From the IMG/VR virus record IMGVR_UViG_3300047323_000273, positions 1 through 26,724 of that record: 26,724 bases of DNA; one strand, 5' to 3'. The notes below the pieces were generated by a model that was not told where the DNA came from, did not search any database, and worked only from the letters and a program-made list of their open reading frames with translations. Origin of the DNA: a virus. The translations under genes and the position numbers were made by a program. Positions 228 to 26,724 of the stretch are shown in pieces (the stretch's first letter is position 1; each line of letters begins with the position of its first letter).

Positions 228-241
228 GGTTACATCGAATT

Positions 242-264
242 TGGCGGTGAAGGAGAGATTCGAA
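242..264 (-). repeat. tRNA 3' remnant (probably tRNA-Ser), candidate prophage attR core
   Basis: On the minus strand these 23 bases read exactly as a tRNA 3' end: T-loop TTCGAAT, 3' T-stem CTCTC, 3' acceptor strand CTTCACC, discriminator G, then CCA. The acceptor strand would pair with GGTGAAG, the 5' end I associate with Pseudomonas tRNA-Ser(GGA). Upstream of the T-loop (bases 265 onwards) the expected GAGAG T-stem strand is missing and no anticodon arm follows, so this is a fragment. A fragment starting at the T-loop is what tyrosine integrases leave at the attachment site far from the intact tRNA. The isotype and the att role are inferences. Confidence 0.72.
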
Positions 265-430
265 ACTACCCGTTTGCGATTTTCGAAGCATACCCCCCCC
301 GTTTATAAGGGCTGCAGCCCGGCGGCCTTTGCAATCTCAGTCCCATGCCAGTCCCATGGGATTTACAGACGAGACTGCAGCACGACTGCTCGACAGGGAT
401 TTCGGCGTTTTATGTTGACCCATGGGAAAA

Positions 431-707
431 AGGTAATTTTGGTAATACGGTGAAGCAATGCCGGTAGAAGCCTTTAAAGCCGGGATGTTGATAGGTTTTT
501 GTGAAGGTAATAATAAGGTAAGTAAGTGGTTAGAAAATTACTTTTAGAGGTAGTAATCCTGAACACCTACCAAACCCCGTAAACTGGGGGCCTGCCCAAA
601 ATATTACCCCTCCCCTTACCTTAAATTACCCTCTGAGGTAATGGCTGAAAGCCACGTTCTATAAGGGCTCCATCCAGTTTTGATCCATCAATTACTAAAA
701 TTACCCT
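431..707. repeat. Island of GGTAAT motifs in inverted arrangement
   Basis: Seven exact GGTAAT/ATTACC copies occur within 276 bases: plus strand at 432, 441, 506 and 637; minus strand at 603-608, 625-630 and 700-705. There are further near-copies at 517 (GGTAAG), 549 (GGTAGT), 615-620 (CTTACC) and 691-696 (ATTACT). Outer pairs are spaced 9 bp on both sides and inner pairs 10-12 bp. The outermost pairs, AAGGTAATTTTGGTAAT at 430-446 and AAGGGTAATTTTAGTAAT on the minus strand at 691-708, are near-identical inverted copies. The arrangement resembles a multi-site protein-binding region such as integrase arm sites or iterons. The binding protein is unknown. Confidence 0.6.
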
Positions 708-1127: not shown

Positions 1128-1578
1128 AAAAAAAGGACACAAAGCCCGTCGGCGGGAGGGGGATAAGTGCTTTTTCGTCAGTTTTTTTTTGCTATCAAGG
1201 AGTTTTTTGATCGGGCTGCTATGGTTTACCGGTACCAGACAGCGAGTAAAAGGAATCACTGCGATGGGCGAGAACGGGATGCTAAAAATTTGCTACAAAG
1301 ACCTCGGCTATCCTATGGAGCTGTTTATAGTTGCGCCGTTGAGTGCGAAGCCCGATGAGTACGCTGTGCTGTTCAATATCCTAAGACACTATAAAAACCG
1401 GAAGAACGTTGACGTCGATTTAGCGGCAACCGGGGCTGAGCGTTTGCGTCCGCAGGTGGCAGCGTTAGGTATATCCGACGTTACATGGGCGTTCGAGTAG
1501 GAAGAGCTGCGACGAAGGTGGTACACCCGCAACGGTCGTGGCTTTGCAATCCCTGATTCCCCTTGTTTGCACAAAAAA
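1121..1578. repeat. Direct repeat TTTGCACAAAAAA flanking the 78-aa gene
   Basis: The 13-mer TTTGCACAAAAAA is present at 1121-1133 and 1566-1578, each just after a CCCC run, and brackets the small gene at 1264-1500. It contains the TGCAC core seen in the 1022-1127 cluster. It may be a boundary of a small inserted segment or simply two binding sites. Confidence 0.4.
1264..1500 (+). CDS. Small hypothetical protein (78 aa)
   Basis: A 78-residue acidic-to-neutral protein with no signal peptide or membrane segment. I chose the ATG at 1264 because AAGGA lies about ten bases upstream (1249-1253). The longer open frame from 1105 would add a low-complexity N-terminus through homopolymer runs and looks non-coding. 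The layout, an N-terminal beta-like part (residues about 5-20) and a C-terminal segment ending ISDVTWAFE, faintly recalls the small DUF6555 proteins of Pseudomonas, but that is a weak impression. The gene sits in the accessory stretch, is transcribed opposite to the late operon, and is bracketed by two copies of TTTGCACAAAAAA (1121 and 1566). Function unknown. Confidence 0.5.
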   Translation: MGENGMLKICYKDLGYPMELFIVAPLSAKPDEYAVLFNILRHYKNRKNVDVDLAATGAERLRPQVAALGISDVTWAFE

Positions 1579-4605: not shown

Positions 4606-5525
4606 AGGCCGACCAGTTCGCGAACAAAGCTCAATCCTTCCAGCGACCCCACCAACAACACGCCGGCGGACAACACCCATTCGTGGCCCGGGGCTTCGCC
4701 CTCGAGCAGCGATCGCCGCAGTTCGTTAACGTCACCAGGGCCGATCAGGCGGGCACGCATGCTGGTATCAGCGGCCCCGCCGGCCAGCAGCGCCTTGAGA
4801 TCGTTCAACTGCTGGTCACGACCTTGCTGCTGCGCCACTTTGCGTGAGGCAAGCGCGACAAGATCACCCATTGGTGAACTGTCGGCCGCGTAACTTTCCA
4901 ACACCGCCAGTTGGCCAGCCATGGATTGTTTCGCGGCTTTGACTACGGTGCAGCGCTCGAGCGGCAGCGATTGCCAACGCGGCAATGGGCCAGAGCTGGG
5001 AATCTCCCACTTTTCCGTTTCCAGCGTCGACAGGTGCCCGGCACGACGCTCGGTGCGCACCAGGTCAGGAATCGGCAGCAAGGCGTTGAAGCGCGACAGG
5101 GTGTTGGCCAACTGGTCGTAGTTGGTGCCCAGAAACAACACTGACAGCGCGTACTGCGGCCCGGTCGGGCGGCCGGTGTCGGTGCCGTCGACCAATTTGC
5201 TCGCCAGCTGCTGCAGCAGATTCGGTGCCGACAGGAAACGTTGGTTGCCGCGTCCCTGGCCAATGCCGCTTTGAAACGGCGTCACCACCAGGCACGCCGG
5301 CGCCTCGCCCATCTGGCTGGCCATCGCGGCACGGCCAGCTGCGATCGCACTTTTCGCCGCCTCACCGACCGGCCCCGGGTTGGTACTGGCCTGCCCGTCG
5401 AGACTGGCCAAGCGCAAGGCGGTGTTGGCCAGTTCACTGCCGGCCAGATCCTTGGCCGCGCCCAGTCCGTCCATCCATTGGGTAGCCTGCTCCGGCCAGC
5501 GCATGGTCACCGGTGGCCAACTCAT
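4602..5525 (-). CDS. Tail/baseplate-associated protein of unknown role (307 aa)
   Basis: A 307-residue protein, rich in Ala and Gln, with no membrane segment or signal peptide. An N-terminal helical part (residues about 1-80) is followed by a mixed domain with LSVLFLGTNYDQLANTLSRF near residue 125, a helix-rich stretch, and a hydrophobic C-terminus (VLSAGVLLVGSLEGL). The start at 5523-5525 overlaps the fibre chaperone gene stop as ATGA; the alternative start six codons upstream is inside that gene. Its location after the tail fibre and chaperone, before the hub block, fits a baseplate component found in HP1-like phages. I cannot assign a specific function. Confidence 0.6.
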   Translation of the reverse strand: MSWPPVTMRWPEQATQWMDGLGAAKDLAGSELANTALRLASLDGQASTNPGPVGEAAKSAIAAGRAAMASQMGEAPACLVVTPFQSGIGQGRGNQRFLSAPNLLQQLASKLVDGTDTGRPTGPQYALSVLFLGTNYDQLANTLSRFNALLPIPDLVRTERRAGHLSTLETEKWEIPSSGPLPRWQSLPLERCTVVKAAKQSMAGQLAVLESYAADSSPMGDLVALASRKVAQQQGRDQQLNDLKALLAGGAADTSMRARLIGPGDVNELRRSLLEGEAPGHEWVLSAGVLLVGSLEGLSFVRELVGL

Positions 5526-6217
5526 GATTGGATTGGCTCCCAAGTCACGGCCTCAAGCGCGGCCACGTCATCGCTCTCCAGAGCCAGGTCGAGCACATGT
5601 TTCAGCTGCAACGCTTTCTGCAGCAGCTCCAGCTTGTATACAGTGAAGTCATCACTGACCTGACGAATCTGCGCAAAGGTGTGGGGCCTGAACTCTTTGC
5701 GCCCCCGCTCGTCGCGACAGGGATAGAGGGTGTCAACGCCGCGAAAAATAACCCCGTTCAGGTTTAATTGATCTTCCAGTTGGCTGCTGTAGTTGTGGGG
5801 CTCGCCCAATGCCGACGACCAGAAGCCAACAATGATGGCGGCCTCACAGGCGCGGTTCACTTCGTAGACTTTCACCAGGTGAACTTGCACGGCGTCCTTC
5901 ACCCAAGCCCCGGCACGCCAGTGATACTGCGCGGAAGGTCGCGGCTCTTTGGTCAAGCCTTCAGGCAACGGGCCCAGCTCCAGGTGCTCATCTTCAGCGC
6001 CTGTTTCAGTGCTGAACACAGCGCCGCGGTTGTCTGCCACCTGCTGCGGTTTTTCCTCGACCAGCACCCAAACATGGCCAGCCTCTGGTTGGGCCAGAAG
6101 CTTTTCCATCTGGATGGCATTGCCCGGCAGCTGTAGCTGTTGTCCAACACCCGGGATCGCTGGCACCTCAAACGGCCCTGTCAGAATGCCGCACGGGTCA
6201 AAAAAATAGGTAAACAT
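5522..6217 (-). CDS. Tail fibre assembly chaperone
   Basis: A 231-residue protein directly after the tail fibre gene (9-base gap). Its N-terminus (MFTYFFDPCGILTGPFEVPA) is of the kind seen in tail fibre assembly and host-specificity chaperones, with an AGAWVKD-like WRAGAWV motif near residue 100. The C-terminal half is helical. Such proteins bind the fibre C-terminus and help it fold or attach. No signal peptide or membrane segment is visible. The order fibre then chaperone is the general rule in P2-like, Mu-like and lambda-like phages, which supports the call. Confidence 0.7.
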   Translation of the reverse strand: MFTYFFDPCGILTGPFEVPAIPGVGQQLQLPGNAIQMEKLLAQPEAGHVWVLVEEKPQQVADNRGAVFSTETGAEDEHLELGPLPEGLTKEPRPSAQYHWRAGAWVKDAVQVHLVKVYEVNRACEAAIIVGFWSSALGEPHNYSSQLEDQLNLNGVIFRGVDTLYPCRDERGRKEFRPHTFAQIRQVSDDFTVYKLELLQKALQLKHVLDLALESDDVAALEAVTWEPIQS

Positions 6218-6226
6218 AGAAGCCCC

Positions 6227-8047
6227 TTAAATGAGTTTGATCCGGCCCGGATAGGCGATCGATCGAGGACGAGACTCCGATCCACCGCTAGATGAAGTGG
6301 TACCGGGTGTCCACTGCGAATAGTTGTTGCTGCCGCCACCCTGCATCTGGGTGCCGAAGTTCCCAGCACCAGGAGTCGTGTGGTTGTGGATCAGGTTCTG
6401 AGAGTCCTTCCAGCTACCCGCAGCGCGACCCGGATCGACTGCGCGAGCCTCATCCAGAACTCGCAAGAACTCGCCTCGACCCTCCGGCCCCCGGAACGTC
6501 AACACCCCATCGCCACTGGTCCACCCGCCTTCCATCCCAACGCGAGCCGCTTCGGTGGTCAGCATTGAGGACTGCTGTGCGTGATCCCATAACCACGGCC
6601 AGTCGGCGCGGTTGAACACGGCACTGCTCAAACCGCCATAGCCACCTGGCTGGAACACGGTGGTGGTTTCAAACACCGGCCGGCCCAGTGGCGTGGTGTC
6701 GAACCGTCCCACCGGCCACCAGTTGCCGGCGCCGTCACTGCGCAAATGCCACCAGTCGCCCGAGCCCATCAGGGTCAGGAAGCTGTAACCGGCGGCGCGC
6801 AAATGGGTATGGAACTTGATCTTGTCCGCGCCACTGGTTTGCACCACCAGGCGGTTGACGCTGTTGTCGGCACGTCGAACGATGAAGTCGATCACCCCCA
6901 ATGCCGCGTTCGCCGGGGGCAGCGTCACGGTGCGGTTGCCGGCGGCGGCGTCGACCACGACCAATCCCCGATCGGCAGCTGTCAGCGCCTTATCCGCCGC
7001 CACGCTGGAGATCTGCACGCAGATCGTTTTCCACAGATCAGCCACCGCCTTGGACGTCGCCAGGCTTTCACTGTCGGCGAGCACCAGGCTGTCGCTTTTG
7101 GCGTTGGGGAGGTTGCCCAGGTCCACGTCTTCCTTGGTGGTGGCCCGAGCGCGCAGGTGTTCGTAATCGCCGGTGCGGGCCGCGAAGTGCGTGACCAACG
7201 GACCATCGATCAGCTCGACGCTGCGACGATCAGTAATGGTGGCGGCATTCGGTAGATCAGCGATGGCCACGCAGTAGTGGCGCACACCGGCGCTGTCGGT
7301 GTAGTCCGGGCGATCGACGGCAAACACCACGTTCCAGCTGGCCACCACATCACTCAGCTCGCGCTGCAGGGCCACATCCAGCCATGCAGTGGTCGGGAAG
7401 GCTGGCGGCACTACTGCGAGTGCAGCAGAGCGCACCAGACGAATACCTTCGATATAGGCGCTCCCCGGTTGGAGCTGATAAACGCTGCCGACTTTCACCA
7501 GCTGCAGCGAAGCGCCGAAGAAACAGGCACGGCCAAAAATGTCGCGGTTACTCAGGCGCTCGCGCTCATCGATCCCGGCCAGGCGCACGGTAAAGTCGTG
7601 CTGCCAGGTGCTGGCATCAATGGTGATGCCGGTCAGCATCTGGGCCCCGTCAAACGCCACCAGGAAGTTGCGCGTGAGGTTGTTGCCGATCTGCAGCGGC
7701 GGGATATTGCGGCGTTTGATCTGCAGCGGCACGTACGCCACGGCAAATAGCACGCCTTCTGCTGTCTCGAGCCCGATCCAGTTGAAGTCCCAGTCGCCAA
7801 CGTCGGAGCCGATCTGCGAGCTGTACACGACCTGATTGGGGTTCACGTAGCCCGCGTTGCCGTCGGGAATGTCGTAGACGTGGACGATCTGCCCTGCTGC
7901 TGGCTTCGGTGCGGCGCGATCGACCGGTCCGCTGGAATCGAGTCCGGGAACGTTGGCAAAAATGAACCGCACCACATCAAGCCCCTGCTTGGCGGCTTGT
8001 TTTTGCGCGATCAGGTTTTCACCCGCAAGGGTAATGCTGGCTCCCAT
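6227..8047 (-). CDS. Tail fibre protein (gpH-like)
   Basis: A 606-residue tail fibre. The N-terminal 150 residues (start MGASITLAGENLIAQKQAAK) match the virion-attachment domain of P2/HP1-type fibres. The middle has beta-rich repeats, a LGNLPNAKSD segment near residue 320 typical of phage fibre repeats, and the C-terminus has a HNHTTPG motif and a final ESRPRSIAYPGRIKLI resembling the receptor-binding tip of Pseudomonas fibres and collar domains. It would bind the host surface, probably lipopolysaccharide. The ATG at 8045-8047 has GGAG about ten bases upstream; the extra upstream codons overlap the gpI gene. Fibre tips evolve fast, so host range cannot be predicted. Confidence 0.85.
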   Translation of the reverse strand: MGASITLAGENLIAQKQAAKQGLDVVRFIFANVPGLDSSGPVDRAAPKPAAGQIVHVYDIPDGNAGYVNPNQVVYSSQIGSDVGDWDFNWIGLETAEGVLFAVAYVPLQIKRRNIPPLQIGNNLTRNFLVAFDGAQMLTGITIDASTWQHDFTVRLAGIDERERLSNRDIFGRACFFGASLQLVKVGSVYQLQPGSAYIEGIRLVRSAALAVVPPAFPTTAWLDVALQRELSDVVASWNVVFAVDRPDYTDSAGVRHYCVAIADLPNAATITDRRSVELIDGPLVTHFAARTGDYEHLRARATTKEDVDLGNLPNAKSDSLVLADSESLATSKAVADLWKTICVQISSVAADKALTAADRGLVVVDAAAGNRTVTLPPANAALGVIDFIVRRADNSVNRLVVQTSGADKIKFHTHLRAAGYSFLTLMGSGDWWHLRSDGAGNWWPVGRFDTTPLGRPVFETTTVFQPGGYGGLSSAVFNRADWPWLWDHAQQSSMLTTEAARVGMEGGWTSGDGVLTFRGPEGRGEFLRVLDEARAVDPGRAAGSWKDSQNLIHNHTTPGAGNFGTQMQGGGSNNYSQWTPGTTSSSGGSESRPRSIAYPGRIKLI

Positions 8048-25469: not shown

Positions 25470-26724
25470 ATGAAAGAAGATCTTCGCCACGACGTGTTGC
25501 AACGCCTCCAATTCGACTTCGGACTCAAGCACCGCACCGGCACCGACTACATGCGCGGCGGCACCTGCCCCAAGTGCAAGAAAAAGGAGCTGTATTCCCG
25601 GTTCGATACGCCGTGGATGGTGATCTGTGGTCGCCCGGAAAAGTGCGGCCATACCCTGCACGTTAAAGAGCTGTACGACGATCTGTTTGAGGACTGGAGC
25701 AAGCGTGCGCCGGCGACCGATCAGCACCCCAACGCTACCGCCCGGGCTTATTTGGAGTACGCCCGAGGCTTTCGGTTTGAGCTGATTCAGGGCTGGTTCA
25801 CGCAGGAAAGCTTCTATTCCCCTGAACACAACGCCGGCAGCGCCACGGTGCGTTTCGCTCTGGAAAAAGGCGGCTGGTGGGAACGCCTGATCGATCAGCC
25901 GCACCGCTTTGGCAAGATGAAGGCGCGCTTCAAATCCAAGGACAGCTATCGCGGCGTCTGGTGGTGCCCGCCCTGCGTCGACCTGCTCGAGGTCAAGGAA
26001 ATCTGGATCGTCGAAGGCATCTTTGATGCCATCGCACTGGTGCACAACGACATCGCGGCGGTATCGGCCATGTCGTCCAATGCGTTCCCGGTGGACTCCC
26101 TCAAGGCGCTGATCAAAACCCGTGAAGGCGGCAAGCTGCCCAAGCTGGTTTGGGCGCTGGATAACGAGCCGAGTGCCAACGCTTACACCCGGCGCTGGGT
26201 CCGTGAAGCCCGCGCCCTAGGCTTTGTCTGCGAATCCGCGCAGATCTCCCAGCGCGACGGGCGCAAGGCTGACTGGAACGATCTGCATCAGCGCTGGAGC
26301 TTCATCCAGGACGATGCCAAGCGTGCCGAACAGATCGCCACCGACCTCAAGCAGGCGCGGCATCTGGGCGCCCTGCTGCTGGCAGACAGTGCGGCTGAAA
26401 AAGCCTTGCTTATGTACGACTGGAACAAACGCGGTGAATTTCACCTAGGCTTCGGCAGCCGCCTGTACTGGTTCAAGTTGGACATGGAGAAATTCAACCG
26501 GGCCATGTCCGACATCGAGGACAGCGACAACCACGACGACCAGTTGCTCAACCAGGCGCAGCAGCGCGAAAAGGCGCTGCAGCAATCCGGTAGTGTCGTG
26601 GAGATTGCCAACTGTTACCCACAAGCCCTGTACTTCCAGCGCAACGAGGTGACCGACGAGTCTTGGTATTACCTGCGCGTGGACTTCCCGCACGATTCGG
26701 AAAGCGTCAAAAACACCTTCACCA
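25470..26724 (+). CDS. Bifunctional DNA primase/helicase, partial (runs off the window)
   Basis: The first 418 residues of a replication protein cut by the window edge. The N-terminus has a CHC2-type zinc site (Cys33, Cys36, Cys53 and Cys59 in CPKC...CGRPEKCGH). A Toprim domain follows, with the catalytic EG in IWIVEGIFDAIAL (about residue 182) and an acidic LDN (about residue 230). The DNAB-type helicase would lie beyond the window. Such bifunctional primase-helicases are typical of the replication module of P2-like Pseudomonas phages, where they act as the replisome primase. The ATG at 25470 follows the previous gene by 2 bases. Confidence 0.85.
   Translation, partial: MKEDLRHDVLQRLQFDFGLKHRTGTDYMRGGTCPKCKKKELYSRFDTPWMVICGRPEKCGHTLHVKELYDDLFEDWSKRAPATDQHPNATARAYLEYARGFRFELIQGWFTQESFYSPEHNAGSATVRFALEKGGWWERLIDQPHRFGKMKARFKSKDSYRGVWWCPPCVDLLEVKEIWIVEGIFDAIALVHNDIAAVSAMSSNAFPVDSLKALIKTREGGKLPKLVWALDNEPSANAYTRRWVREARALGFVCESAQISQRDGRKADWNDLHQRWSFIQDDAKRAEQIATDLKQARHLGALLLADSAAEKALLMYDWNKRGEFHLGFGSRLYWFKLDMEKFNRAMSDIEDSDNHDDQLLNQAQQREKALQQSGSVVEIANCYPQALYFQRNEVTDESWYYLRVDFPHDSESVKNTFT

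Follow-up and report, generated by a model that had tools for sequence, protein, structure and literature searches.

Repeat island and its neighbourhood

The DNA analysed here, referred to as the window, is a virus contig of 26,724 nucleotides from IMG/VR (IMGVR_UViG_3300047323_000273) that belongs to a phiCTX/P2-like Pseudomonas prophage. Near its left end lies a candidate att core (239..268), which is similar to a tRNA 3' end and to the core annotated in phiCTX; its attR mate is absent from the contig, as is an integrase gene. Just outside this core, a strong inverted repeat (AAACCCCTGACTTCTTTCGAAATCAGGGGTTTT, 193-228) resembles a host terminator. On the inner side, the direct repeat CAGTCCCATG occurs twice on the plus strand with 11-bp spacing (338..358), a layout shared with the two GTTCCCA copies of phiCTX. 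Further inward follow an island of short repeats (about 414-720, with sites at 432-705) and a likely cos region (1136..1175), which is proposed from similarity: it matches the end region of phi3 at 92.5% identity, and a similar stretch ends the UFJF_PfPro record. A primase-helicase gene with Zn ribbon and Toprim domain starts at the opposite end of the contig (25470..26724, plus strand) and is cut by the contig end, leaving the first 418 aa, so that the C-terminal domain lies outside the contig. The initial annotation had placed the island about 170-440 bp inside the att core, which is correct since the core resembling a tRNA 3' end lies at about 239-268. It had also stated that no gene explains the motifs, and indeed only spurious ORFs overlap the island and no plausible gene covers 432-705.

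The island is built from the 6-bp motif GGTAAT, present in seven exact copies, five in-register copies with one mismatch and one with two mismatches. In the left half, exact copies at site 1 (432..437, plus strand, offset 0), belonging to the left outer pair, site 2 (441..446, plus, offset 9) and site 3 (506..511, plus, offset 74) are followed by GGTAAG at site 4 (517..522, plus, offset 85; one mismatch) and GGTTAG at site 5 (528..533, plus, offset 96; two mismatches), both of which are exact in phiCTX and Dobby, then by AGTAAT at site 6 (537..542, minus, offset 105; one mismatch) and by a weak AGTAAT site (552..557, plus, offset 120; one mismatch). Beyond the central spacer (558..602), which contains the dyad centre at about 568/569, the right half comprises GGTAAT at site 7 (603..608, minus, offset 171), GGTAAG at site 8 (615..620, minus, offset 183; one mismatch), GGTAAT at site 9 (625..630, minus, offset 193) and site 10 (637..642, plus, offset 205), AGTAAT at site 11 (691..696, minus, offset 259; one mismatch) and GGTAAT at site 12 (700..705, minus, offset 268), which belongs to the right outer pair. 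Among 2000 dinucleotide shuffles of the 276-bp island, exact GGTAAT occurs 0.41 times on average and at most three times, and the earlier claim that the seven exact copies and their near-copies are non-random is thereby upheld. The layout is almost palindromic (positions p and 268-p), forming two inverted, AT-rich half-arrays. The matched outer pairs in inverted orientation that had been noticed before are borne out by the 15-bp outer ends, GGTAATTTTGGTAAT and, on the opposite strand, GGTAATTTTAGTAAT. A conserved left shoulder, GTTGACCCATGGGAAAAA, occupies 414..431; in the other motif classes, a related GTTGACCC or GGAAAA shoulder marks the array border and recurs in inverted form on the right (CTTTTCC...; GGGGTCAACC in UFJF_PfPro).

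In each genome, the island ranks among the AT-richest 0.05-1.3% of equal-sized stretches. Cumulative GC skew shows no turning point there, and a structured RNA was discarded as a reading, Rfam giving no match. The central spacer holds the small hairpin-like element CCCCGTAAACTGGGG (574-590), whose UFJF_PfPro counterpart, CCCCAGTAAACACGGGG, is located in another array spacer; both are possibly degenerate IHF-like spacer elements. Exact matches to the IHF consensus number 36 among 52 islands, whose rows are related, against 1.3 expected, and they mostly fall into spacers. The window island presents no IHF-consensus site with fewer than two mismatches. Since the window copy has none and the rows are related, the IHF sites serve as supporting evidence only.

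Constant geometry and changing motifs among relatives

A distant DNA search identified the phiCTX attP records D13409 and S75107 as the nearest relative. D13409 is annotated with the attP core at 1737-1766 and cosR at 2393, and between the two it carries 12 exact GGTAAT copies at the offsets of the window. The alignment is free of gaps (window 432 corresponds to D13409 1940, and 700 to 2208). The motif, which was to be sought in related prophages, is found in phiCTX in the same 12-site array and the same register, deposited without an origin annotation. The two differ in the number of exact sites (12 versus 7) and in their att cores. DNA resembling the start of the phiCTX record also recurs in methyltransferase genes of unrelated Pseudomonas phages.

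An array is present in every complete genome read among the relatives that share the primase. GGTAAT arrays occur in Dobby, Sirocco, the PACL phage and D14A, a TGTCAG array occupies the place in UFJF_PfPro that corresponds to the window island, and further motifs are GGTAAC in Smp131, AGGTAA in a Halomonas phage, TGTGAT/CATCAC in ESSI2 and TGTTCC in phi3. The register is common to the window, phiCTX and the Citexvirus relatives. Across about 55 arrays, including those of IMG/VR contigs, the offsets 0+, 9+, 74+, 85+, 96+, 105-, (120+), 171-, 183-, 193-, 205+, 259- and 268- are kept within a base or two, and the island spans 274 bp in most of these relatives. This conservation extends over the GGTAAT, TGTCAG, GGTAAC and CRTCAC classes, with single arrays missing some sites. 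The phi3-type TGTTCC arrays also consist of inverted halves and have their own spacing. According to k-mer scans, there is one island per genome, at a homologous place in most relatives. Array and primase gene are apart in most of these phages; in phi3 (L011), the array lies directly behind the gene (primase gene 4638-7328, array 7403-7709).

For the geometry scan, reversed sequences provide a poor null because the array is nearly palindromic. A better one was obtained by rescanning contig ends without a GGTAAT or TGTCAG array, and, L128 aside, these reach no more than 3.5; the arrays that were kept score at least 4. The L128 hit (GCGATA, 5.5) was excluded as a probable false positive. Partial arrays with similar offsets were observed for YGTAAG (L281 and L284, beside the L124 and L136 primases) and GGTTAG (L317, beside L247). 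They sit within clades that otherwise carry TGTCAG or GGTAAT; their sequences suggest further motif classes, and recent changes of the recognition sequence are a possible explanation. Many P. aeruginosa contigs are near-identical to Dobby and show no array in the contig end examined, probably as the IMG/VR prophage borders cut the array off. The relatives also vary in other respects. With respect to att and primase, the virion gene block of window/UFJF-type genomes is oriented opposite to that of Dobby-type genomes (L006 versus L005), and both types can carry GGTAAT origins. Dobby (L005) encodes a DNA cytosine methyltransferase and a PAPS-reductase-like protein between primase and excisionase (32322-35461), and phi3 contains a reverse transcriptase gene near its integrase (1071-2756).

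Motif identity follows the primase-helicase

The identity of the motif follows the primase-helicase of about 900 aa, and not the integrase or the portal protein. On a tree of 54 primases, the motif class changes four times, the minimum for five classes, while it changes seven times on the integrase tree and seven times on the portal tree; the rows of these trees are not independent, clean recombinants are few and the primase comparison left out the phiCTX primase. Individual pairs illustrate the pattern. A GGTAAT phage (L222) and a TGTCAG phage (L100) have integrases that are 96% and portals that are 94% identical, whereas their primases are 52% identical. Dobby and UFJF_PfPro differ in motif and share 70% identity between their integrases and 50% between their primases. 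phiCTX and Dobby carry the same motif, yet their integrases show no significant match. The primase fragment of the window is 99% identical over 418 aa to that of L241 (IMG/VR), whose island is of the GGTAAT type. Two further relatives (L009 and L186) possess GGTAAT-like arrays, yet their primases are only about 50% identical to that of Dobby. Since primase and array are separated by the integrase gene on the circular genome, the joint inheritance of the two across a foreign integrase argues for function rather than closeness. The repeat sequence is thus specific to its cognate primase-helicase in the sense of co-variation over 54 primases, which is a correlation and not binding.

The primase-helicase is assigned to Toprim by Pfam, with an additional DUF927 in UFJF_PfPro, and its PHROGs family is named DNA primase. 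Structure prediction for a full-length relative (mean pLDDT 86) yields a fold that is closest, within the PDB, to SCCmec Cch (5dgk, E 3e-14) and SaPIBov1 Rep (8tch, E 2e-12), followed by DnaG, PriRep1 and the SaPI5 primase-helicase. Its last 110 residues or so (pLDDT 88, above 90 in most blocks) are predicted to fold with a winged-helix-like order of elements, and this C-terminal region alone gives a weak fold match to Cch (E 0.24). A sequence-profile search of the PDB for an origin-binding domain returned nothing convincing, and the link to Cch and SaPI Rep comes from the fold search alone. As modelled, the protein resembles an initiator helicase of the SaPI Rep/SCCmec Cch fold fused to a DnaG-type primase, and, judged by the predicted fold of the relative, the element itself encodes such a helicase together with a DNA-binding domain at the C-terminus. 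In SaPI Rep helicases as in SCCmec Cch2, it is the C-terminal domain that binds DNA, namely the origin iterons in the former and the putative origin in the latter (PMC7581432); in the alpha protein of P4, a winged-helix domain binds the origin repeats (PMC4234260). The primase-helicase encoded at 25470..26724 is accordingly proposed as the candidate origin-binding initiator of the window.

A proposed iteron-type origin and its alternatives

The island (about 414-720) is best read as the iteron-type replication origin of the phiCTX/P2-like prophage, a function to which a probability of roughly 0.87 is assigned. Iteron origins that are served by a self-loading initiator helicase are marked by a short repeat recurring many times in AT-rich DNA, as is the case here. 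Iterons were among the options named by the initial annotation, and this one gains support from the conserved offsets and from the motif following the primase-helicase, while two of its other proposals, integrase arm sites and a MITE-like element, are not supported. In the proposed mechanism, the C-terminal winged-helix-like domain of the primase-helicase would bind each 6-bp site, and the distance of 9-12 bp between sites would place successive monomers on about one face of the DNA. The two inverted half-arrays would load a pair of helicase hexamers around the centre, and IHF-like bends in the spacers of most relatives may compact the complex. The helicase would then open the AT-rich DNA, the Toprim domain would prime, and the host polymerase would copy the excised circle from this theta-type start, which would replace the nick and rolling-circle start by gpA of P2.

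Among the other explanations, the one that survives best, though it is unlikely, is an operator, silencer or partition array for another DNA-binding protein (a repressor, Cox or a small HTH protein) that travels with the primase. Inverted arrays with multiple sites can be operators or centromeres, and several small HTH genes are found near the primase. No gene starts at the island, however, so that there is no promoter to control, and the small genes ahead of the primase vary among annotated relatives, whereas the primase is common to all array carriers read. Among the carriers read with annotation, no partition or transfer gene is common to them.

That the island represents arm-type integrase binding sites, forming one arm of attP, is very improbable. 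It does adjoin the att core in phiCTX and many relatives, and IHF-like sites are also known from attP arms. All 12 GGTAAT copies of phiCTX are nevertheless located on one side of the core, with none on the integrase side, while GTTCCCA pairs, 11 bp apart, are present on both. With P2-type integrases, the arm on either side of the core consists of two direct repeats (PMC3931495), which is why the GTTCCCA and CAGTCCCATG-type repeats, and not GGTAAT, are the likely arms. By its layout, the CAGTCCCATG pair at 338-358 likely forms the true integrase arm sites of the window; its Dobby counterpart is ACGTAACAAG, and AGTCCCAT-type repeats lie beside the island in four close relatives as well. The same motif moreover accompanies the unrelated integrases of phiCTX and Dobby, and different motifs accompany the nearly identical ones of L222 and L100, so that it is the primase that the motif follows when the lineages uncouple. 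In phi3, the array lies away from the integrase.

A MITE-like or other transposable element, suggested by the 15-bp inverted ends and the further inverted GTTGACCC shoulder, has a negligible probability, as each genome contains just one copy, which in most relatives occupies a homologous site, and the internal sites hold their spacing to the base while their sequence changes, unlike in copied elements. Equally remote is a packaging enhancer linked to cos: some 0.2-0.7 kb separate the island from the cos region in the window and phiCTX, but the phi3 array follows the primase gene while the stretch resembling the likely cos of the window is near the other end of the record, and the motif class does not track the portal lineage.

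For the iteron-type origin, a broader scenario can be put forward tentatively, at slightly less than even odds. The geometry of the origin, meaning where its dozen or so sites lie and which way they point, may be under stronger selection than the sequence of its sites, and origin and initiator may have switched recognition together several times (GGTAAT, TGTCAG, GGTAAC and CRTCAC, probably also GGTTAG and YGTAAG). The outcome would be separable replication types: co-resident P2-like prophages would not activate one another's origins, and origin and initiator would recombine as a module that spans the integrase gene between them. The co-varying pairs of protein and DNA site in a fixed frame offer a ready test set for the recognition code of winged-helix initiators, and they illustrate that arrays beside attP can pass for integrase arms. 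A literature search whose scope excluded most subscription papers, among them the original publications on phiCTX, yielded no description of this origin. What appears to be new is an iteron origin in the style of SaPI Rep and P4 alpha in P2-like phages, with fixed geometry and exchangeable recognition letters.

The closest likeness is to SaPI Rep (SaPIBov1 Rep, 8tch) and SCCmec Cch (5dgk), which have the same predicted helicase fold and a C-terminal DNA-binding domain, and SaPIs likewise use short iterons as the cognate origin (PMC7581432). The phage helicase differs from SaPI Rep and Cch in its fusion to a Toprim primase of the DnaG type. The phage origin is also usually distant from the initiator gene, beside attP and cos, and its sites keep their geometry from one motif class to the next, in P2-like phages of Gram-negative bacteria. 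A position directly downstream of the initiator gene, which is particular to SaPI origins, is found in phi3-type relatives only, and in the window the island and the primase gene lie at opposite contig ends. For this reason, the array would work like a SaPI origin but is not classed as one. P4 alpha combines, as here, a Toprim primase, a helicase and a C-terminal winged-helix origin-binding domain in one protein with a repeat-based origin (PMC4234260). No sequence match to a solved P4 origin-binding domain was found. The P4 motif and array layout probably differ from those of the phage array described here. P2 is the textbook rolling-circle phage. It belongs to the same group (Peduoviridae) and has the same virion genes, while its gpA origin functions by nicking and rolling-circle replication. 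Here iteron initiation is expected instead, and the gpA family (PF05840) was found in none of the eight relatives searched (0/8), the window contig itself being incomplete. A large branch of P2 relatives, including phiCTX, Dobby, UFJF_PfPro, phi3, Smp131 and ESSI2, appears to start replication at an iteron origin.
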